Source: Microcaldota archaeon (lineage in GTDB: Archaea > Micrarchaeota > Micrarchaeia > Micrarchaeales > CABMGC01). From it: 33,012 bases of DNA. A model generated the notes under the pieces. That model was not told where the DNA came from. It saw nothing but the letters and a program-made list of their open reading frames with translations, and searched no databases. The DNA lies in the NCBI GenBank assembly GCA_021803245.1, contig JAJZLT010000025.1:1-33012 (forward strand), read 5' to 3'. Shown piece after piece: positions 6,657 through 26,387 of the stretch. The position numbers and the translations under genes were made by a program. Every line of letters begins with the position of its first letter. The first letter of the stretch is position 1.

Positions 6657-6821
6657 ATGGAGAAGAAAGGATTGTGCCATATGTGCGGGCAGCCTGCAAG
6701 TATGAGATGTTCTATGTGCGGGAGGCCTGTATGCAATGATCATTACAACAAAGCCCTGAACGTGTGCGCAAGCTGTGCACGCGGAAGAATAGCTGCGAAG
6801 ACAGATAGAGGGCGCAGATGA
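6657..6821 (+). CDS. 54-residue double zinc-site protein
   Basis: A short frame starting MEKKGLCHMCGQPASM and ending in a basic tail, 15 bases after the priL-like stop. Eight potential zinc ligands are arranged in four pairs: C7/C10, C18/C21, C26/H29 and C37/C40. That spacing fits an interleaved (cross-brace) fold like HIT-type or B-box zinc fingers, with pairs 1+3 and 2+4 each holding one zinc ion. Such modules usually mediate protein or nucleic-acid contacts. Position behind the primase gene suggests co-transcription but does not prove a shared role. Its stop is 5 bases from the stop of the convergent 93-aa gene, so it fills the gap exactly, which supports it being real. Confidence 0.7.
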   Translation: MEKKGLCHMCGQPASMRCSMCGRPVCNDHYNKALNVCASCARGRIAAKTDRGRR

Positions 6822-7215: not shown

Positions 7216-7581
7216 ATGTATCCGAACTATATGGCAATACTTGTATTCGCGTTCTTTGCCGTTTTTGTGCCTGCATCGATGATAATAGGCTCGATGATGA
7301 TAAGGAAAAGGCGCACATCGTCTCAGGTTGCAGAACTCAACTTTGAGAGCGGGGAGGAGAGTGTCGGAAGCAGGATAACCATAATGAAGGAGTATTTCCA
7401 CTACTTTTCCCTCTTTCTTTTCTTTGAGATACTGGTTACAATTACTCTCTTCTGGGTTATCGCTGCACGCTCTGTAGGTTCAGTTTACAATTACTTCATG
7501 CTTGCTTTCCTTGTGGCAGGATTCCTGCTTGAAATTATAATAGTCATTTATGCCAGGAAGGACTCATGGGTGGATGAATGA
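7216..7581 (+). CDS. nuoA: Complex I subunit A (NuoA)
   Basis: 121 residues from ATG 7216, the family's usual length; an in-frame ATG at 7159 would add 19 hydrophilic residues. NuoA is a small membrane subunit at the junction of the quinone site and the pumping arm. Three hydrophobic helices are visible: MAILVFAFFAVFVPASMIIG, a segment around FSLFLFFEILVTITLFWVI, and FMLAFLVAGFLLEIIIVIY. The loop after helix 1 reads ELNFESGEESVGSR, corresponding to the YECG/YESGE loop that lines the quinone channel; the cysteine of bacterial NuoA is serine here, as in other archaea. It is the first gene of the nuo operon and its stop overlaps the nuoB start (ATGA). Confidence 0.88.
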   Translation: MYPNYMAILVFAFFAVFVPASMIIGSMMIRKRRTSSQVAELNFESGEESVGSRITIMKEYFHYFSLFLFFEILVTITLFWVIAARSVGSVYNYFMLAFLVAGFLLEIIIVIYARKDSWVDE

Positions 7582-8150
7582 ACGGAATAGACTACGATGG
7601 CCAGGAATTTGAAAATGCGCGTAAGGAGATGGACAAGCTGGTCCAGGACTCGCTGAAAGGGAGGGAGATTAAACCGAATGTCCTCTTCGCTAAGCTTTCT
7701 GACCTCAGCAAGGGCATGTCAGGCAAGCTTGTGAATTGGTCAAGGGTTAACTCGTTATGGCCGCTGCAGTTTGGTCTCGCATGCTGTGCAATGGAGCTCA
7801 TGGATTTTGCTTCAGCGAGGGTGGATGCTGAGAGAAAGGGCTTTCTCATGCTAAGGCCGACACCGCGGCAGGCAGATGTTATGGTCATTGCAGGATGGGT
7901 TACAAAATCAATGGTACCTGAAATAAAACGCATGTATGAGCAGATGGCAAAGCCGAGATATGTTATAGCTTATGGGGAGTGTGCCACATGCGGGGGGCCG
8001 TGGTGGGAGAGCTACAATATAATAAAAGGCATAGACCAGGTCCTCCCTGTGGATGTCTTTGTGGCTGGCTGCCCGCCGAAGCCGGAGAACCTGTTCGGGG
8101 CGATGATAAAGCTTCAGAAAAAATTGGGTGGAGACATTGAAGGTAGATAG
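7578..8150 (+). CDS. nuoB: Complex I subunit B (NuoB), carries cluster N2
   Basis: 190 residues. NuoB holds the last 4Fe-4S cluster (N2), which hands electrons to quinone. All four cluster cysteines are present: the tandem pair in FGLACCAMELMDFA, one in ECATCGGPWW and one in VAGCPPKPENL. The SARVDAERKG and RPTPRQADVMVIAGW stretches are also standard. About 45 residues precede the conserved SLWPLQFG start, a modest N-terminal extension. Its start overlaps the nuoA stop by 4 bases, so translation is coupled. The protein is peripheral, on the cytoplasmic side of the membrane. Confidence 0.97.
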   Translation: MNGIDYDGQEFENARKEMDKLVQDSLKGREIKPNVLFAKLSDLSKGMSGKLVNWSRVNSLWPLQFGLACCAMELMDFASARVDAERKGFLMLRPTPRQADVMVIAGWVTKSMVPEIKRMYEQMAKPRYVIAYGECATCGGPWWESYNIIKGIDQVLPVDVFVAGCPPKPENLFGAMIKLQKKLGGDIEGR

Positions 8151-8505
8151 AGAGAACTTGCACAGCAAGATAGAGGAGATGAAAAAGGGAGGGTATGATT
8201 ACCTGGTTAAGATAACTGCGGTGGATTACGTCAAGAGCGTACAGCTTATCTATATTCTCAGGAACACCTCTGCATCGAAGGACGAGGTGCTTGAAGTTGA
8301 CCTTGACCCTTCTGACCTCTATGTGCACACGATAATGAATTATTACAAAGCTGCTGACTGGTACGAGCGCGAGCTTGCGGAAATGTTTGGCGTGGAGATA
8401 AAAGGAAGAAAGGCGAAAAGGCTTATCCTTGCAAAATGGGATGGCAGAGGATATCCGCTTAGGAAAAATTTTGCATGGAACGAGCCATATGAGAAGCGTG
8501 AATGA
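8128..8505 (+). CDS. nuoC: Complex I subunit C (NuoC, 30 kDa type)
   Basis: 125 residues from a GTG at 8128 that overlaps nuoB by 23 bases; this start is uncertain and an ATG at 8179 would remove the first conserved strand. NuoC is a peripheral arm subunit that packs against NuoD. The C-terminal signature ADWYERELAEMFGVEIKG followed by RLILAKWDGRGYPLRKNF matches the 30-kDa subunit motif (ERExxDMFG and PLRKDF). It is shorter than bacterial NuoC because the N-terminal part is reduced, as in other archaea. It is not fused to NuoD; the nuoD ATG follows its stop directly. Confidence 0.93.
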   Translation: METLKVDRENLHSKIEEMKKGGYDYLVKITAVDYVKSVQLIYILRNTSASKDEVLEVDLDPSDLYVHTIMNYYKAADWYERELAEMFGVEIKGRKAKRLILAKWDGRGYPLRKNFAWNEPYEKRE

Positions 8506-9600
8506 ATGGCATTAACTAGGATAAATATAGGCCCTGTTCATCCCAGCACACACGGGGTTCTCCGCCTGGTCGTAGATCTTGACGGTGATACGGTAGTTGA
8601 TGTTGATACAAGGATAGGCTTCCTGCACAGGGGCGTGGAGAAGCTTGTGGAGAACAGGAAATATATGCAATGCCCGCCATATATGGAGAAGCTTGACTAC
8701 GCTGCGCCGCTCTCAGTAGACGAGCTCTTCGTTGCGACTGTTGAAAAAGCACTTGGAATAGAGGTAAAAGAGCGCGCCCAGTATATCAGGGTTGTGCTGC
8801 TTGAGCTGCAGAGGATTGCAAGCCATCTTCTCTGGCTTGGCACCACCTGCAATGACCTGGGGCAGCTTACAACTGGTTTCATGTGGGCATTTATGGACAG
8901 GGACCTTGTATTAAGGCTGCTTGAGGAAGCAACAGGCAGCAGAATGTTCTATGTGAATATGAGGCTTGGAGGCCTGGTGCGCGATCTGCCTGCAGGTTTT
9001 GAGGAGCACGCCAACGAGCTTCTTGATTACCTTGAAAAGAGGCTGCCGCGATACGAGAGATTCATTGAGAAGAATCCTGTCTTTATAGAAAGAATGAGAG
9101 GAGTAGGCATCCTGTCGAAGGAGGATGCGCTCGACCTGGGCGTTACCGGGCAGATTCTGCGGGCTTCTGGCGTAGATTACGATGTGAGGAAGGATAATCC
9201 TTATTATGTGTATAACAAGCTTCATTTCAGCTCCAAGCATGCTGTCAGCGGCGACAATTTCGCAAGATATAAAGTAAGGATGCTGGAGATCGGAGAGAGT
9301 ATAAGGCTTGTCAGGGAAGCCCTGAGGACAATGCCTGAAGGAGACGCGTTGGGCATGCCTGTCAAGCTGGTAATGCCTAATGCGAAGAACCGCATTGCCA
9401 TAGTAAGCAGGGAGGCGCCGCGCGGCGAAGAGCTGATGTACCTTGTAGCCGACCCGCAGAGCGCTTACAGGCTCTCTATACGCGCGCCGACCTTCATAAA
9501 CCTGGCAGCGCTCAGGCACATTGCAAGGGGTTGCAGAATTGCGGATCTCTTCGCAATAACAAGCACGCTTGATTTCATAATGGCTGACGTAGATAGATGA
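8506..9600 (+). CDS. nuoD: Complex I subunit D (NuoD, 49 kDa type)
   Basis: 364 residues, usual length. NuoD forms the quinone-reducing site together with NuoB. The N-terminal loop GPVHPSTHGVLRL contains the histidine next to the quinone head group, and CPPYMEKLDYAAPLS contains the conserved tyrosine. RIGFLHRGVEKL, RVVLLELQRIASHLLWLG, LRASGVDYDVRKDNPY and the C-terminal DLFAITSTLDFIMADVDR are all family hallmarks. The N- and C-terminal cysteine pairs that bind nickel-iron in the related hydrogenases are absent, so this is a quinone oxidoreductase subunit and not a hydrogenase. It starts directly after nuoC and overlaps nuoH by 4 bases. Confidence 0.97.
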   Translation: MALTRINIGPVHPSTHGVLRLVVDLDGDTVVDVDTRIGFLHRGVEKLVENRKYMQCPPYMEKLDYAAPLSVDELFVATVEKALGIEVKERAQYIRVVLLELQRIASHLLWLGTTCNDLGQLTTGFMWAFMDRDLVLRLLEEATGSRMFYVNMRLGGLVRDLPAGFEEHANELLDYLEKRLPRYERFIEKNPVFIERMRGVGILSKEDALDLGVTGQILRASGVDYDVRKDNPYYVYNKLHFSSKHAVSGDNFARYKVRMLEIGESIRLVREALRTMPEGDALGMPVKLVMPNAKNRIAIVSREAPRGEELMYLVADPQSAYRLSIRAPTFINLAALRHIARGCRIADLFAITSTLDFIMADVDR

Positions 9601-10604
9601 CAGGCATGGTAGATATATACACAATAATGCAGAACGGGCTGAACTCCGGAAATATCCTGGTCAGCTTAGTCTTCCTTGTAATATATGTAATCTTCGTTCT
9701 CGTGATAATGTCGGTCTTCGCCTACCTCTTCGGATGGATAGAAAGGAAACTCATTGCAAAAGCGCACTACAGGCATGGCCCCACTTATCTTGGAAAGTTC
9801 GGCATACTGCAGAATCTGGCTGATCTCATCAAGCTTATTGCAAAGGAGAAGGTAGCACCTAAGACCGCGTATCCTGTGCTTTTCTCGCTTGCCCCGCAGC
9901 TTCTTGTGGCTCTTACGGTATTTCTCGTGCTTCTTCTACCATATTCGCCATCTCTGCAGGCCGCAAATATAGGGCCGGGCTTGCTTGTTGTATTCGTTTT
10001 GCTTGGATTTACCCCGATAATACTCTTTATAGCTGCGTTCGCCAGCGGTAACAAGTATGCAGATATCAGCGCACAGAGATCGGTCCTGCTTCTTCTCAGC
10101 TATGAAATACCGATGATGCTTGTAATAGCTTCCACAGTACTCATAACGAACAGTTACAATATACAGGCGCTGATAAGCATGCAGGAGAGGGGGTGGCTTT
10201 TATTCTTGATGCCTGTTGGCTTTGTGATCTTCTTCATCGCCCTGCTTGCAGAGCTTGAGCGGCCGCCTTTTGACTTGAATGAGGCTGATTCTGAATTGAT
10301 AGCAGGCTGGCTCACTGATATCAGTGCACCGTATTATGCACTTTACTTATTCCTTGATTATTCCAAGGTGTTCCTTGGCGGGCTGCTGCTCTCCATGCTC
10401 TTCCTGGGTGGATGGCTCGGTCCGTCGTTCCTGCCGCCTATCGCATGGCTGATAGGAAAGGCGTTCATCGTAGCCCTTGCGGTAATAATGGTAAGGATAA
10501 CTATGTTCAGGATGCGCATAGACAGGATACTTCGCTTTGGATGGATCTGGCTTATACCGTTATCATTAATAAACCTTGTAATAACATACATACTGTTCGT
10601 ATGA
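9597..10604 (+). CDS. nuoH: Complex I subunit H (NuoH)
   Basis: 335 residues with about eight membrane helices. NuoH links the quinone cavity to the proton-pumping arm. Signatures: WIERKLIAKAHYRHGPTYLG after the first helix, ADISAQRSVLLLLSYEIPM, and the acidic loop ELERPPFDLNEADSELIAGW, which forms part of the E-channel. Its ATG overlaps the nuoD stop (ATGA); a second ATG is three codons on. Followed by nuoI after 13 bases. No nuoG gene precedes it, in contrast with bacterial operons that have an NADH module. Confidence 0.96.
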   Translation: MTGMVDIYTIMQNGLNSGNILVSLVFLVIYVIFVLVIMSVFAYLFGWIERKLIAKAHYRHGPTYLGKFGILQNLADLIKLIAKEKVAPKTAYPVLFSLAPQLLVALTVFLVLLLPYSPSLQAANIGPGLLVVFVLLGFTPIILFIAAFASGNKYADISAQRSVLLLLSYEIPMMLVIASTVLITNSYNIQALISMQERGWLLFLMPVGFVIFFIALLAELERPPFDLNEADSELIAGWLTDISAPYYALYLFLDYSKVFLGGLLLSMLFLGGWLGPSFLPPIAWLIGKAFIVALAVIMVRITMFRMRIDRILRFGWIWLIPLSLINLVITYILFV

Positions 10605-10617
10605 TCTGGGGGTAGCC

Positions 10618-10980
10618 ATGTTGGTAGAACCGCTTGTTGAAGCTGCAAAGACTCTTGCAGAAAAGAGATTTACCGTAGAGTATCCTGAAGAACGCGAGTC
10701 CATGCCAGATACCTACAGGGGCATGCTCAGGCTGGATATGGACACATGCATAAGCTGCACTGCCTGCGAGAAGATATGCCCAAACAAAACCATAACAATG
10801 GTAGAGGTAAAGACTGACAAAGGCGTCAAGATCATGCCGCAGGTAGGCATAGAGCGGTGCCTCTTTTGCGCGCTCTGCGAAGAAGTCTGCCCGCCCAAGT
10901 GCCTGACGCTGAGCAAGGATTACAGCTTTGAAGCATACGATAAGAGGGATCTTATTAAAAGGCCCGAGGAGCTTGAGTAG
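10618..10980 (+). CDS. nuoI: Complex I subunit I (NuoI), 8Fe ferredoxin-type
   Basis: 120 residues with two 4Fe-4S motifs: CISCTACEKICPNK and CLFCALCEEVCPPK. These clusters (N6a, N6b) pass electrons to N2 in NuoB. Since no NuoE, F or G genes are in the operon, NuoI is the most likely docking point for ferredoxin or another soluble donor. The N-terminus EPLVEAAKTLAEKRFTVEYP contains the YPEE segment seen in family members before the first cluster. A run of G bases (GGGGGTAG) ends 2 bases before the ATG and may act as a ribosome site. It is 13 bases after nuoH and 5 before nuoJ. Confidence 0.95.
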   Translation: MLVEPLVEAAKTLAEKRFTVEYPEERESMPDTYRGMLRLDMDTCISCTACEKICPNKTITMVEVKTDKGVKIMPQVGIERCLFCALCEEVCPPKCLTLSKDYSFEAYDKRDLIKRPEELE

Positions 10981-10985
10981 ATCAT

Positions 10986-11465
10986 ATGCTCGATACGCTA
11001 GCTGCCGTTGCCATAGGATTATTCATTCTCGCCGCTAGTATAGGCGTATTCACTTCCAGAAAGCTTGTCTTCTCTGTTATAAGCCTAACTTTTGCGTTTG
11101 CAGGAAGCGCCCTTATTTTTGCTGTTATGGGGCAGCTCTTCCTTGCACTGATGCAGCTCTTCATTTTCGTAGGCGGACTCTCTACTTACCTGATAGTGGC
11201 TCTCGCTGCTGACGAGAAGGAAAGGAGCCTTGAGAGCCTGCCTGCTTTTTTTATCATCGCAATCATAGTCTCGGCAGCGCTTGCACTTATAGCCTTCAGG
11301 TATGATACTGCAGGGGAGCAGCTTTCAACTGCCAATTTTGTCAGCGTGATAGGGCAGGCGATATCAACGTATTATTTATTATTTGCAATGGCTGCGCTGC
11401 TCCTCTTCTCGGCTGCGATAGGCAGCATAATTATACTAAGGAGGTATGTCCAGTTGATAGTATGA
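10986..11465 (+). CDS. nuoJ: Complex I subunit J (NuoJ)
   Basis: 159 residues, five predicted membrane helices. NuoJ sits between NuoH and NuoK and contributes the pi-bulge helix of the central hydrophilic axis. Helix 3 reads LALMQLFIFVGGLSTYLIVAL, corresponding to the conserved MQLxVYVGAIxVLxxF region; the tyrosine is phenylalanine here. The protein ends RRYVQLIV and its stop overlaps the nuoK ATG by 4 bases. Position between nuoI and nuoK agrees with the standard gene order. Confidence 0.92.
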   Translation: MLDTLAAVAIGLFILAASIGVFTSRKLVFSVISLTFAFAGSALIFAVMGQLFLALMQLFIFVGGLSTYLIVALAADEKERSLESLPAFFIIAIIVSAALALIAFRYDTAGEQLSTANFVSVIGQAISTYYLLFAMAALLLFSAAIGSIIILRRYVQLIV

Positions 11466-11770
11466 TTTACGTTCCTTATGTTATTGCCATAGCGTTCTCT
11501 CTTGCAGGAATTGCCCTTGCCGGGATCTCTACAGACAGGCACTTCGTGGTAATAATGCTTGCAGTTGAACTTATACTGCTCGCAAGCACCATTCTGCTTG
11601 TTACCTTTTTCACTTACCAGAAAAGCCCGGATCCGTCAGGGATAGTGATGCTTATAAGCATATGGACGGTAGCCGCAGTAGAAGTAATAACAGTCATTGC
11701 CTTCTATGTCTACGTAAAGGCCAGGGGCCTTGATTTTGACGTAACCAGGCTCTCCAGGATGAAGTGGTAG
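11462..11770 (+). CDS. nuoK: Complex I subunit K (NuoK)
   Basis: 102 residues, three membrane helices, the usual size. The two membrane glutamates needed for proton transfer are present, in MLAVELILLAST (helix 2) and TVAAVEVITVIAFYVYV (helix 3). NuoK is homologous to MrpC of Na+/H+ antiporters and to MbhG. Its start overlaps the nuoJ stop (ATGA) and the next gene, nuoL, begins within a few bases of its end, so the set is tightly coupled. Confidence 0.94.
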   Translation: MIYVPYVIAIAFSLAGIALAGISTDRHFVVIMLAVELILLASTILLVTFFTYQKSPDPSGIVMLISIWTVAAVEVITVIAFYVYVKARGLDFDVTRLSRMKW

Positions 11771-11775
11771 ATGGC

Positions 11776-13557
11776 ATGCTGGCCCTATACTTATTATTGC
11801 CCCTTGTATTTGCCAGTGCATATGTGGCTCTGGACAGCAGCGGAAAATTTTCAAGGTACATAGCCTTGGCAGGGTCGCTTGTTAGTCTCGCTCTTCTTCC
11901 TTTGCTGCAGTATGGCACATGGAGCACAGGGTGGTTCAGCGCGGGAAACCTAGCCTTCACGATAACTACAACAGTTACTCCGATAAGCTTTATGCTCATT
12001 GCGATAGTACTCTTCATAGCTCCGTTCATACTCTTCTATTCCTTTGGCTACATGAAGAACAGGGATGAGCAGAGAAGGTTTTATTTTCAGATGCTGACTT
12101 TTGAAACCGCAATGCTGCTCTTTGCAATGAGCGGCAATTTTATAGTAATGTTTATAGGATGGGAGATGCTCAGCCTGACAAGCTATATGCTCATAGGATT
12201 TTGGTACTGGAAACCTAGTGCTGCGAGGGCTGCGAGAAAGACCTTTACCATAATACTGATTGGCGACCTTTCTATACTGGCTACGATGGTTATATTCCTG
12301 AATGTCTTTGGCAGCCTGGAATTTGCGGCCATATTCCAGCAATTGAGCTCACACACGCTCTTCGCCACTTTGGCTGCCACTCTGATGGCCATAGCCATAT
12401 TCACCAAATCAGCGCAGTTTCCATTCATTGAATGGCTGCCAGACGCCATGGAAGGCCCGACTCCTGTTTCCGCATTCCTTCATTCGACGACAATGGTAAA
12501 GGCAGGGGTCTTCGCGGCGATAATACTCCTCCCCCTTTTTGAAGTGACTGGCGTAATCAGGGTTATGCTTATCATAAGCGTGATAACTGCAGTGCTTGCC
12601 GCACTTAATGCCTCGAAGGAGAAGCATATAAAGAAAATAATCGCATACTCCACGGTGCAGGAGCTGGCACTTATGCTTGCTGCAGTAAGCAGCGGCGCTC
12701 TTGTCGCTGCGCTTTACTTCTTCTTCGCGCAGAGTTTCTATAAGGCGTTGCTCTTCTTCGGTTCAGGCGTGGTGATGGATGCGAACGAGACTACTGATAT
12801 TGACAAAACAGCAGGCCTGAAGAGCAACAGGCTGGCCTACATTACTACGCTATTCGGGGTGCTTGCGCTTGCTGGCTTTGTGCCCTTCGACGGGTTTTTC
12901 GCCAATCTGGGGCTCGGCGCGTCGTTCTCAGCAAATCTCTTGGCATATGCAATAATCTCAGGCATAGGGCTCTTGACAAGCTTTTACATCTTCAGGTGGC
13001 TCTTCCTGATCTCGAGAGATACGCGCAACAGCGAGGTAGTCAGCAGGTATCAGTCCACGCCAAGGAGCATGACTTCTGCAATGGCCGTCCTGTCGGTATT
13101 TACGCTGCTTGCTTCTGGAGCATTTTTTTATTTCGATAGATATCTCTCCCTGAATTCCAATTATTATTTAAACAGCTCCCTGGGCTCTTTCCTCTCATCC
13201 TCTCTTCAGCCAATAGGCACGGTTACGGTCATGGCAATAGCGGTGGCAGGCATGATAGCAAGCTATCTTGCATTCAGTAGAAGAATGGAGGTAAAGCAGA
13301 AGCTCTTGAACTATCTGATTTACAGCAGTACGGCCATGAACGCACTTTATCTTGCCGGAGCAAGGTTTCTTTATGGATTCGCAGAAGGCCTTGCCCTTTT
13401 CGACCTTTACCTTAGCGATTTATTTGATTATGCAGGGCATCTGGTCTCAAATTCCGGCTCTTACCTGCGCAGACTTTCCTCGGGAAACATCAACTTCTAT
13501 GCGCTTCTGTTTGCCATCGGACTTGTGATACTGACAATTTACATTTATATCGTATAG
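11776..13557 (+). CDS. nuoL: Complex I subunit L (NuoL), antiporter-like
   Basis: 593 residues from ATG 11776; a GTG at 11764 overlapping nuoK is the alternative. NuoL is the distal antiporter-like pump module. It has the key glutamate in FIGWEMLSLTSYMLIGFWYW, the lysine-containing TKSAQFPFIEWLPDAMEGPT and FLHSTTMVKAGV, which separates NuoL from NuoM and NuoN. The long C-terminal region (YLRRLSSGNINFYALLFAIG) matches the lateral-helix and last membrane helix of NuoL, so it is a full subunit and not an Mrp or hydrogenase homologue. Many membrane helices are visible along its length. It is followed by nuoN after 16 bases with no nuoM between. Confidence 0.94.
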   Translation: MLALYLLLPLVFASAYVALDSSGKFSRYIALAGSLVSLALLPLLQYGTWSTGWFSAGNLAFTITTTVTPISFMLIAIVLFIAPFILFYSFGYMKNRDEQRRFYFQMLTFETAMLLFAMSGNFIVMFIGWEMLSLTSYMLIGFWYWKPSAARAARKTFTIILIGDLSILATMVIFLNVFGSLEFAAIFQQLSSHTLFATLAATLMAIAIFTKSAQFPFIEWLPDAMEGPTPVSAFLHSTTMVKAGVFAAIILLPLFEVTGVIRVMLIISVITAVLAALNASKEKHIKKIIAYSTVQELALMLAAVSSGALVAALYFFFAQSFYKALLFFGSGVVMDANETTDIDKTAGLKSNRLAYITTLFGVLALAGFVPFDGFFANLGLGASFSANLLAYAIISGIGLLTSFYIFRWLFLISRDTRNSEVVSRYQSTPRSMTSAMAVLSVFTLLASGAFFYFDRYLSLNSNYYLNSSLGSFLSSSLQPIGTVTVMAIAVAGMIASYLAFSRRMEVKQKLLNYLIYSSTAMNALYLAGARFLYGFAEGLALFDLYLSDLFDYAGHLVSNSGSYLRRLSSGNINFYALLFAIGLVILTIYIYIV

Positions 13558-13573
13558 CTCGTGATGTGGAAAT

Positions 13574-14947
13574 ATGGTACTTATATTCTATGTATTTGCA
13601 CTTCTCTGCGCTTTTCTTGTGCTGGGAAACCTTGCCGTAAGGCTCCTGGGGAGAAAGAAGGCACAGCTTGCGGTCAACATCATAGCCATGGGCCTTATAG
13701 GCATCGTATTGGGATATACGGGAGTTGCTTATGGAAATTTCACCGAATTTCACCTTGTGAGCATTAATCCATACGGGCTCTTCTTTTCAGTACTGTTTAC
13801 GGCATCGATGCTGCTCGTAAACATACTTGCATTCGAATACTCACACAATTATGGTGATTTCTCAGTGCTTGCCAGCTTTGTGCTTCTCGGAATGTTCACA
13901 GTTTCGCTTTCCAACTCGCTTATAAGCATCTTCATCGGCCTTGAACTCGCATCAATACCTACTGTCTTTGTCATATTGCTATCAAAGAAGAGCCTTGAGG
14001 CCTCTGCGAAATTCTTCATAATGTCATCCATAGCAATAGCGATGCTCTCGCTTGCCATTGTTCTTGTTTATGGAGGCTCAAACAGCCTGTCGATTACGCA
14101 GCACGGCAAGAACGGCATAATGATGTTCGCTTCTGTGCTTTTCATAATCGCGCTGGGCTTTGAAACTTCCATATTCCCGTTCAATGTGCTGGTCCCTGAC
14201 GTGTACCAAGGTTCAGACGCATACGTCACCGGAATGCTTGGCGGCGTGAATAAGAAGCTGGGCTTCGCTGCACTTATACAGGTGCTGATACTGGTATTTG
14301 TTGGATATGGCTCCGCCTTTTTAGTGGTGGCCGCGCTCTCAGTCCTTACTATGTTCTATGGAAATATCGTGGCCCTGAAGCAGACAAATCTGAAGCGGAT
14401 GCTGGCGTATTCTTCAATCTCGCAAGCCGGATACATTTTGATAGGTATTGCTACGCGTTCCCAGCTCGGCATTACGGGATCCTTATTCCAGATATTTGCG
14501 CATGCATTCATATTCATAGGCTTACTGGGCATCGTCGCCTGGCTTGAGAAGAATAACAGGAGCAACATCGATGACCTGATAGGATTGAATGGCGAAAACA
14601 AGTTTGCTGCATTCGCTATGACCCTGCTCATGCTTTCCCTGGTGGGCCTGCCGCTGACTACCGGCTTCGTGGGCAAATTCCTCCTTTTCTTAAGCGCAGT
14701 AAACTCCGGATTGCTTGTACTGGCCATACTCGGGATAATCAATAGCGTGATCTCAGTTTACTATTATGCAAGGCCAATACTTGCAGCATACACTGGAAAG
14801 CAGAACGAACGGAAACTGGAAATGGAATTGGGATTGCAGGTAGTGCTGATTGCCTGCATCTTCGCAACCCTCTTCTTTGGCGCATATCCAAATGCACTTG
14901 TCAACATAATAAGCCATGCGAGCGCATACCTATTCGTGGCAATCTAA
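13574..14947 (+). CDS. nuoN: Complex I subunit N (NuoN), antiporter-like
   Basis: 457 residues, about 13-14 membrane helices. NuoN is the pump module nearest the quinone end. It is NuoN and not NuoM because of VPDVYQGSDAYVTGML (PDVYEG signature), SLEASAKFFIMSS (EAalKYF signature), the GFVGKFLLF segment and INSVISVYYYARPILAAY. The membrane glutamate is in FIGLELASIPTVFVIL, and the KK of GGVNKKLGF provides the central lysine. It is the last gene of the operon; the next 350 bases hold no complex I gene. A second reading as a fused M/N subunit is unlikely because the length is that of one subunit. Confidence 0.92.
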   Translation: MVLIFYVFALLCAFLVLGNLAVRLLGRKKAQLAVNIIAMGLIGIVLGYTGVAYGNFTEFHLVSINPYGLFFSVLFTASMLLVNILAFEYSHNYGDFSVLASFVLLGMFTVSLSNSLISIFIGLELASIPTVFVILLSKKSLEASAKFFIMSSIAIAMLSLAIVLVYGGSNSLSITQHGKNGIMMFASVLFIIALGFETSIFPFNVLVPDVYQGSDAYVTGMLGGVNKKLGFAALIQVLILVFVGYGSAFLVVAALSVLTMFYGNIVALKQTNLKRMLAYSSISQAGYILIGIATRSQLGITGSLFQIFAHAFIFIGLLGIVAWLEKNNRSNIDDLIGLNGENKFAAFAMTLLMLSLVGLPLTTGFVGKFLLFLSAVNSGLLVLAILGIINSVISVYYYARPILAAYTGKQNERKLEMELGLQVVLIACIFATLFFGAYPNALVNIISHASAYLFVAI

Positions 14948-24248: not shown

Positions 24249-24386
24249 TTACCACGCCTTTCGCTTGCCTTTCATCGCGGCATATTTTGTTGCAGCGCAT
24301 GCTGCAGGTGAGCCCAACTGGCGCATATGGCAGAACTTGACTGCCAGATTGCTACAGAAATGGACGGAATCTGCCGTGCACAGCAT
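24249..24386 (-). CDS. 45-residue cysteine-rich microprotein in the copper operon
   Basis: Frame starting MLCTADSVHFCSNLAVKFCH and ending KGKRKAW. Four cysteines (3, 11, 19, 30) and two histidines could bind a metal. Support comes from packing: its ATG is 4 bases after the YHS stop, and its TAA directly precedes the copA ATG, in the same phase as copA, so it fills the gap exactly. It is the only open minus frame across the gap. It could be a metal carrier, a former N-terminal domain of CopA cut off by a stop codon, or a chance frame. No known family recognised. Confidence 0.5.
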   Translation of the reverse strand: MLCTADSVHFCSNLAVKFCHMRQLGSPAACAATKYAAMKGKRKAW

Positions 24387-24390
24387 GCTG

Positions 24391-24534
24391 TCATTTCCTT
24401 TTCAAATACTTGTCAGGCTTCTTATCGAAACTCTGCTTGCAACTTGCAGAACAGAAGAAGTAAACCTTTCCGCCATAGTTGCTTTTAAATTCGGACTTTT
24501 CATTTATCTCCATATTGCATACCGGATCTATCAT
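24391..24534 (-). CDS. 47-residue YHS-domain metal-binding protein
   Basis: A complete small YHS/TRASH-like module: MIDPVCNMEINEKSEF at the start, then GGKVYFFCSASCKQSFDKKP. The DPVCxM and FCSxxCK motifs supply three cysteines for a metal ion, very likely copper here. The same module forms the N-terminus of the CopA encoded next door (DPVCGM, YFCSTTCK), so the free protein is likely a chaperone or partner handing copper to the pump, comparable in role to CopM of the Sulfolobus cop cluster. GGTGA lies 5 bases before its ATG as a ribosome site. Strongly supported by motif and position although only 47 residues. Confidence 0.85.
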   Translation of the reverse strand: MIDPVCNMEINEKSEFKSNYGGKVYFFCSASCKQSFDKKPDKYLKRK

Positions 24535-24546
24535 TTTTTCACCAAT

Positions 24547-24663
24547 TTAACATTTATCCTGCATTTCTGCATGCATATTTTCAGATGCCTCACAGACATC
24601 TGATTTTTCCATAACTATGGGAGGGCACACGCTGCAGTCTGCTTTGGTTCCTTTATTTGTCAT
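24547..24663 (-). CDS. 38-residue cysteine/methionine peptide in the copper operon
   Basis: Frame starting MTNKGTKADCSVCPP and ending EMQDKC. It has a CxxC pair (10, 13), further cysteines at 24 and 38, and five methionines, a composition common in small copper binders. It starts one base after the stop of the PadR-TRASH regulator and ends 12 bases before the YHS gene, whose ribosome site lies in that gap. No known family. Position and composition suggest a copper-binding peptide; expression needs proof. Confidence 0.55.
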   Translation of the reverse strand: MTNKGTKADCSVCPPIVMEKSDVCEASENMHAEMQDKC

Positions 24664-24664
24664 T

Positions 24665-25117
24665 TTATACACTTCTTTGATTTACCCTGATTTGAGGTAT
24701 AAGCTTGTAGCCTTTAGCGCAATTACTGCAACAGAAGCTCAAGTATTTCCCGTTGATTTTTTCCTTGTAGCCTCCTTTGTATATCTCGCAACCGCAATGT
24801 GCGCATGTGATAATGTTGGGCTTTATTGCAATTTCGAAGAAATCTTCAAGTTTGCTTGATAAGCGTTTTACGAATTTTATGCCTTCTGGTGTGAGATAGT
24901 ATACCTGTTTGTCTCTTTCCCCTTTCGCCCCCTTTGCATCAATGTATCCGTACCTTTTCAGCTGCCTTAGAAAGGGATAAATCTGCCCCGAGCTGGTTTT
25001 GCTGCCCAGCCTGGCTTCTATTGATTTCATTATGTCGTATCCGTGCTGGTCCTTCTCGTTGAGTAGGAGTATTGCAAAAAGTTTTGTCAAATTCTTTATC
25101 TCTATATCAGAATGCAT
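24665..25117 (-). CDS. PadR-type transcription regulator with C-terminal TRASH-like metal domain
   Basis: 150 residues. The first about 95 are a PadR winged helix: LFAILLLNEKDQHGYDIMKS, SSGQIYPFLRQLKRYGYIDA and VYYLTPEGIKFVKRLSSK. The last about 45 carry a TRASH-like cysteine site: ITCAHCGCEIYKGGYKEKIN then LSFCCSNCAKGYK. TRASH domains bind copper in archaeal CopT/CopR-type regulators; those known to me use other DNA-binding heads, so the PadR head is unusual. Inference: metal binding to the C-terminus changes DNA binding and relieves repression of its own operon, which leads through three microproteins to copA. A repeated ATATCAT dyad between its TATA box and ATG is the likely operator. Confidence 0.88.
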   Translation of the reverse strand: MHSDIEIKNLTKLFAILLLNEKDQHGYDIMKSIEARLGSKTSSGQIYPFLRQLKRYGYIDAKGAKGERDKQVYYLTPEGIKFVKRLSSKLEDFFEIAIKPNIITCAHCGCEIYKGGYKEKINGKYLSFCCSNCAKGYKLIPQIRVNQRSV

Positions 25118-25150
25118 ATATCATTTTATGATATATCATAAATATAAATA
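25118..25150 (-). promoter_or_regulatory. Promoter and three-half-site operator of the copper operon
   Basis: The TATA box (TATTTATATT on the minus strand, 25141-25150) is centred about 29 bases before ATG 25117, so the mRNA is nearly leaderless. Between box and ATG are three half-sites in alternating direction: ATATCAT (25118-25124), ATGATAT (25128-25134) and TATCAT (25134-25139). They form a 7-3-7 inverted repeat and a perfect 12-base palindrome that share the middle half-site. A repressor bound here would cover the start site; the PadR-TRASH protein is the obvious candidate. Confidence 0.65.
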
Positions 25151-26174: not shown

Positions 26175-26387
26175 ATGAAAGCAAAAGCTTCGAAATTGAA
26201 TAGTCTGCATGCAAAAACGAAGGATGAACTCAAGCGCAGGATAAAAAGAAAGTATAGGTCCGGTGACGCACACAGGGAGCTTTACAAAAAGGAATACCAC
26301 GAAGTAATATACAAACACATGTGCCCAATATGCGGAAGCAGGATTGACGAAAACGGAATGTGCGCCTGCGGGGCCGGAGATTCTTGA
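26175..26387 (+). CDS. 70-residue zinc-ribbon-like protein
   Basis: The first about 45 residues are very basic (KTKDELKRRIKRKYRSGDAH), fit for nucleic-acid contact, and the end has a small zinc site CPICGSRIDENGMCACG (C-x2-C, C-x-C). TTTTAAATATC lies about 40 bases upstream and AGG at 26168-26170 is a weak ribosome site. It is divergent from menA and its stop abuts the stop of the oxidoreductase beta gene. Function unknown; a ribosome- or nucleic-acid-associated role is a guess from charge and zinc site. Confidence 0.72.
   Translation: MKAKASKLNSLHAKTKDELKRRIKRKYRSGDAHRELYKKEYHEVIYKHMCPICGSRIDENGMCACGAGDS

Follow-up and report, generated by a model that had tools for sequence, protein, structure and literature searches.

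The window, the 33,012-nucleotide stretch of Micrarchaeota DNA analyzed here, carries on its minus strand a copper-export operon in the order PadR-TRASH-like regulator, 38-aa frame, YHS protein, 45-aa frame, CopA. We consider it likely that this is a copTMA-like copper-efflux operon which has lost a small cysteine-rich protein, for which we coin the name ZF47, with the 45-aa frame as the remnant of ZF47 and the 38-aa frame as a lineage-specific sequence. The regulator (150 aa, positions 25117-24665, minus strand) is followed after 1 nt by the 38-aa frame (24663-24547, minus strand), which contains four cysteines and is probably no conserved gene; an alternative GTG start three codons earlier would lengthen it to 41 aa. 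The YHS protein (47 aa, 24534-24391, minus strand) begins after a further 12 nt. The 45-aa frame (24386-24249, minus strand), a probable decayed copy of a ZF47 gene, follows after 4 nt and runs without a gap (0 nt) into CopA (696 aa, 24248-22158, minus strand). These frames and their spacings of 1, 12, 4 and 0 bases, as given in an earlier note on this DNA, proved exact on checking the sequence. The ribosome site placed by that note before the YHS gene is also present, as GGTGA upstream of the start codon, and GGTG is found at the same place in 23 of the 28 loci inspected. The genome that contains the window (G000) comprises 872,604 bases in 42 contigs and is 80% complete. Elsewhere in the window, a 70-aa frame (26175-26387, plus strand), divergent from its neighbors, ends in a C-terminal CPICG...CACG pattern and has no Pfam match above the cut-off. 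A 54-aa frame at approximately 6657-6821 (plus strand) contains three CxxC pairs (CHMC, CSMC, CASC) and is possibly a small zinc protein. Consecutive frames at 7578-14947 (plus strand) resemble, by eye, what we take to be a respiratory complex I cluster.

The families of the three larger components were assigned with profile searches. The regulator has a PadR helix-turn-helix (HTH) domain (PF03551, E-value 8.6e-14, 51.7 bits against a cut-off of 27), and its matches in the PDB include PadR proteins. Its C-terminal TRASH match (PF24273, 25.3 bits) lies slightly below the cut-off of 27; the translation shows the cysteine pattern C-x2-C ... C-x3-C. The 47-aa protein belongs to the YHS family (PF04945, 2.9e-18, 66 bits against a cut-off of 30.3) and, searched alone, has no PDB match at E-values up to 0.1. 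CopA is a copper-translocating P1B-type ATPase (TIGR01511, 572 bits against a cut-off of 397) with a CPC motif in its translation and an N-terminal YHS domain (PF04945) at residues 3-42. Only one genome from the same genus (G155, locus L004; L090 gives identical matches) was available for comparison. Relative to this genome, the regulator has a dN/dS of 0.12, the YHS protein is 87% identical (dN/dS 0.12), and CopA is 92% identical, or 90.2% as DNA (dN/dS 0.11); all three are under purifying selection. The families and the dN/dS values support the view of the earlier note that the regulator, of a metal-sensing type, the small YHS protein and CopA form a copper operon.

The arrangement resembles the archaeal copT-copM-copA clusters of Sulfolobus/Saccharolobus and Ferroplasma, which the parts of PMC3595675 and PMC7830388 consulted describe as tandem arrays of a regulator with an HTH and a C-terminal TRASH domain, a small protein of the TRASH type, and CopA. 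The window operon shares this tandem of regulator, small protein and CopA. The degenerate copM primer of PMC3595675 encodes DPVCGM, which also occurs in the N-terminus of the window CopA and is close to the DPVCNM of the 47-aa protein. On sequence considerations, the 47-aa YHS protein is a candidate CopM-like copper chaperone. There are also differences from the cluster as described in those parts. The window regulator is of the PadR type and is not Lrp-like; the HTH given for CopT1 in PMC3595675 resembles Lrp-like proteins. Unlike in the copTMA cluster, the window CopA itself starts with a YHS domain, and many relatives of the window add ZF47 and some also a Gly/Tyr/Met-rich hydrophobic protein. 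We found no paper on a PadR domain combined with a TRASH domain among open-licence PMC papers. A YHS copper protein and the copper ATPase CopA are mentioned together in the passages of PMC12302457 that discuss Mia14, an ARMAN-2-related archaeon according to the part of PMC5498576 consulted. These passages pair a YHS protein with a copper ATPase, as does the window operon, and contain no mention of a ZF47-like protein, a regulator or an operator.

Immediately 5' of the regulator start codon lies an exact inverted repeat, TATCAT-N3-ATGATA (25119-25133), the probable operator of the PadR-TRASH-like regulator. Of 28 promoters that have the regulator upstream of copA, 21 contain the repeat with no more than one mismatch and 15 contain it exactly, against a rate of 0.1% in shuffles. 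It is missing from the remaining seven regulator loci (G120, G125, G246, G247, G248, G252 and G264). Among loci with YHS but without such a regulator, only 1 of 42 has the repeat within 600 nt upstream of YHS. The repeat occurs at a single place in the 872,604 bases of the window's own genome. If one mismatch is allowed, a site of this kind turns up by chance in 17 of 100 shuffled versions of the window, so the argument for an operator rests on conservation. We infer that the regulator probably binds the repeat as a candidate operator, and that copper would release it. In the proposed mechanism, the PadR-TRASH-like protein would repress the operon via the repeat, which lies between promoter and start codon, and excess Cu(I) at the TRASH-like cysteines would release it. 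The YHS protein, judging from the protein families, would carry or buffer Cu(I) and pass it to the YHS-bearing CopA for export. The ancestral operon would have encoded the finger-like, cysteine-rich ZF47 of approximately 47 aa between YHS and CopA, and this gene would have decayed in the genus of the window.

The earlier note had counted three small copper proteins in the operon, with all three small frames as working peptides for copper buffering or for delivery to CopA. We consider this very improbable for the 38-aa and 45-aa frames taken together with YHS. The tight head-to-tail spacing of the genes and the Cys-x2-Cys of the 38-aa frame speak for it, as does the alignment of the 38-aa frame with L004 (61.5% identity over 39 columns, stop included), in which three cysteines are kept (C10, C13 and the last). 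In L004, however, the 38-aa frame is interrupted by an in-frame stop, and the 45-aa frame, broken by length changes, does not continue. The dN/dS of the 38-aa frame is 0.62, compared to 0.11-0.12 for the regulator, YHS and CopA. Stops or frameshifts in related genomes had been named beforehand as evidence against the peptides, and both frames are broken in the sole genus relative available, on a contig of approximately 2x coverage. As the CopA, YHS and PadR frames are open in the same stretch of this contig, sequencing error is an unlikely cause of the breaks. The cysteine content of the two frames is unremarkable, since 27 of the 172 ORFs of 30-60 aa in the six frames of the window, both extra frames included, have at least four cysteines. 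DNA identity to L004 is 88.5% for the non-coding promoter, 82.9% for the 38-aa frame and 77.9% for the 45-aa interval (7 gap positions), and approximately 71% of CopA synonymous sites are unchanged (pS 0.289). This indicates that the two intervals change more than the genes and somewhat less than synonymous sites; the pN of the 38-aa frame (0.17) is likewise below the pS of CopA (0.29). The intervals may be under weak constraint. The statement that two of the small frames lack a known family holds, in that neither the 38-aa nor the 45-aa frame belongs to a Pfam or NCBIfam family.

A search of 78 near genomes gave matches to the 38-aa frame at E-values below 0.05 only in its own genome and in G155 (with one internal stop). 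At E-values up to 1 there were three matches, the third being a weak one in G145 (E-value 0.053). We regard the 38-aa frame as a lineage-specific sequence without evidence of function, and probably no conserved gene. In ten relatives with the regulator nearby, the place between regulator and YHS is occupied by a Gly/Tyr/Met-rich hydrophobic protein of approximately 100-125 aa, one copy of which was searched and showed no Pfam or NCBIfam family above the cut-off. In L006, L007, L008, L014 and others this protein lies approximately 300-670 nt upstream of copA. The interval measures 86 nt in L019 and L020, where it holds only the end of the Gly/Tyr/Met-rich protein, and approximately 30 nt in L011, L028 and L150, where it looks like a deletion scar. 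A derivation of the 38-aa frame from this protein found no significant support. For the window, 126 of 300 shuffles scored as high for the 5' part and 54 of 300 for the whole interval; the 3' part, which contains the YHS ribosome site, was reached by 10 of 300. The corresponding figures for L004 (5' part, whole interval, 3' part) were 96, 10 and 14 of 300.

The interval between YHS and CopA has a different background, as many related Micrarchaeota encode the conserved cysteine-rich ZF47 of approximately 47 aa at this place. An alignment of 15 selected copies has C6, C9, H12, C22, C26 and C32 in common, with the motif C-x2-C-x12-C-x3-C-x5-C. No cut-off was reached by three copies searched against Pfam or by two searched against NCBIfam. 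The ZF47 profile matches 121 of 301 genomes of the phylum. We compared 91 CopA loci, the window included; they come from 89 genomes, with G166 and G264 contributing two each. These are the listed matches in the family and order of the window in which CopA has an identity of 51% or more and the match extends to the CopA start. This set leaves out the partial matches G147:C35, G154:C73 and G243:C14, G288 (other family), class-level matches, and CopA matches beyond those listed (e.g., G144, G165, G168, G189, G194, G225, G257 and second matches of several genomes). ZF47 was scored as intact on ungapped profile positions, residues outside the match not being counted against a copy. Among the listed loci, 32 carry an intact copy no more than 260 nt upstream of copA, and another 4 have one at a greater distance upstream. 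A further 7 (three from one genus) have an open frame in which other residues stand in for one to three of the five cysteines, and up to 9 hold a split or partial copy; of these 9, L005, L016, L029 and L172 (at most 13 bits) may be chance matches. YHS lies within 90 nt of CopA without ZF47 in 14 loci, far upstream without ZF47 in 5, and 15 loci have neither; 2 are contig ends. A ZF47-sized interval without a profile match is found in 3 (G000, G155, G263). Searches upstream of copA turned up a YHS frame at 70 of the 91 listed loci. For 31 full-length ZF47 copies, some with lost cysteines, 80 overlapping pairs give a median dN/dS of 0.34, supporting a coding gene. The extra cysteine-rich microprotein which the earlier note saw between YHS and CopA thus exists in many relatives as ZF47, and in the window there is at most a degraded trace of it. 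Earlier stages of decay are shown by the split copies (G150, G163, G233, G234, G238) and by those losing cysteines (G151, G153, G221, G246-G248, G255).

The position, length and DNA alignment of the window interval, rather than the protein profile, indicate that the 45-aa frame is probably such a decayed ZF47 copy. YHS and CopA are 142 nt apart in the window and 141 nt apart in L004. In 37 other loci, this distance is 141-164 nt in 27 that bear ZF47 (some degraded) and 6-54 nt in 6 without ZF47, with 4 outside both ranges. Aligned with the 27 ZF47 intervals, the DNA of the window interval has a mean score with a z of 4.6 over dinucleotide shuffles, and that of L004 lies 3.6 SD above such shuffles (0 of 200 as high in each case). 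Compared with other segments, the window interval reaches a z of 3.8, with none of 1461 window segments as high, and L004 a z of 3.6 (0 of 1474). None of the frames of the window interval scored significantly with the ZF47 protein profile; the 45-aa frame scored best at -0.2 bits, and shuffles reach 6.3 bits. This is expected for a frameshifted relic, but is no proof of one. The profile also found no match in G000 or G155. The 149-nt YHS-CopA interval of L203 (G263), also without a profile match, is possibly an independent relic.

Two other accounts of this interval were weighed. In the first, the 45-aa frame is a diverged yet working descendant of ZF47 in this species, and only the sister species has lost the gene. 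The frame does span the whole slot without interruption, up to the CopA start itself, and an open frame has been kept after cysteine loss in seven other loci. The 45-aa frame is not, however, a five-cysteine open frame matching the profile, as its score shows, and the similarity to L004 shifts to another reading frame between the upstream and the downstream half of the interval, making this account improbable. In the second, the interval is kept only as a spacer for translational coupling and the peptide is irrelevant, consistent with the abutment of the 45-aa frame on the CopA start and with ZF47 copies that remain open without their cysteines. Against this, the 14 listed loci with CopA close behind YHS dispense with the interval, and no listed L004 frame ends at the CopA start, a 60-aa frame running across it; we find a mere spacer highly implausible.

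The AlphaFold2 model of ZF47 is a small strand-strand-helix arrangement predicted with confidence (pLDDT 88.7). No match stands out in comparisons of the model with known structures (best Foldseek E-value 4.4; best VIA Z-score 2.7 over 29 residues), and the modeled fold resembles C2H2/UBZ zinc fingers only weakly. The profile searched against PDB sequences gave a best E-value of 0.14, one ZF47 sequence had no match in 72,556 plasmids, and no mention of a ZF47-like protein was found in the titles and abstract beginnings of the open-licence PMC papers listed. In the parts of PMC6562870, PMC10716476 and PMC11241148 consulted, haloarchaeal one-domain zinc-finger micro-proteins are described as very small and cysteine-based, some being important for stress adaptation. 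ZF47 resembles these as a very small archaeal cysteine-based finger protein. The haloarchaeal micro-proteins are defined there by two C(P)XCG motifs, whereas ZF47 has C-x2-C, C-x3-C and a further cysteine, and is often found in cop operons.

ZF47 also occurs away from copA. A CopA-like ORF lies within 1.5 kb in 5 of 13 class-level ZF47 loci examined (L225-L237), in one case on the opposite strand. The protein is present in 16 of 286 genomes drawn from the phylum to which a Daviesbacteria (CPR) genome belongs; this genome had been chosen because it bears ZF47. We scanned 20 picked neighboring or fused ORFs from 13 ZF47 loci against Pfam, 7 of which had no family. The others include a cupredoxin beside CopA (L246), a heavy-metal-binding HMBD protein (L254), VIT1 (L252), FTR1 (L258), DsbD-like and redoxin proteins (L253), a pyridine nucleotide-disulphide reductase (L256) and a DSBA/thioredoxin next to the end of a HAD hydrolase (L255), as well as a citrate transporter, a Mur ligase and a BNR-repeat protein. 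Within the family and order of the window, ORF layout and the beginnings of translations reveal mixed neighbors at 20 loci and some others away from copA, implying that ZF47 is not exclusively a copper protein. A metal role for ZF47 is likely. Three loci are recorded as separate observations. In L247 (Bathyarchaeota genome G303), a prismane-family protein carries a ZF47-like finger as an in-frame N-terminal fusion. In L250, the finger forms the N-terminus of a 549-aa protein without a Pfam match, one adjacent ORF also lacking a match. In L242 (G254), a ZF47 copy lies just 3' of a PadR-TRASH-like regulator 43% identical to that of the window, with no CopA within 1.5 kb.

Taken more broadly, Micrarchaeota cop operons may use ZF47 as a small metal protein together with the YHS chaperone and CopA, the protein being shared with some CPR bacteria (several copies beside metal transporters) and lost repeatedly, with the window as a late stage of decay; we regard this wider picture as evenly poised. 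For this genome, two unsupported copper microproteins are removed from the list, so that the small metal proteins of the operon go from three to one and a relic. The relic leads to an unannotated small protein family located between the copper chaperone and the copper pump in many Micrarchaeota, and the definition of a candidate operator makes metal regulation of these operons testable in vitro.
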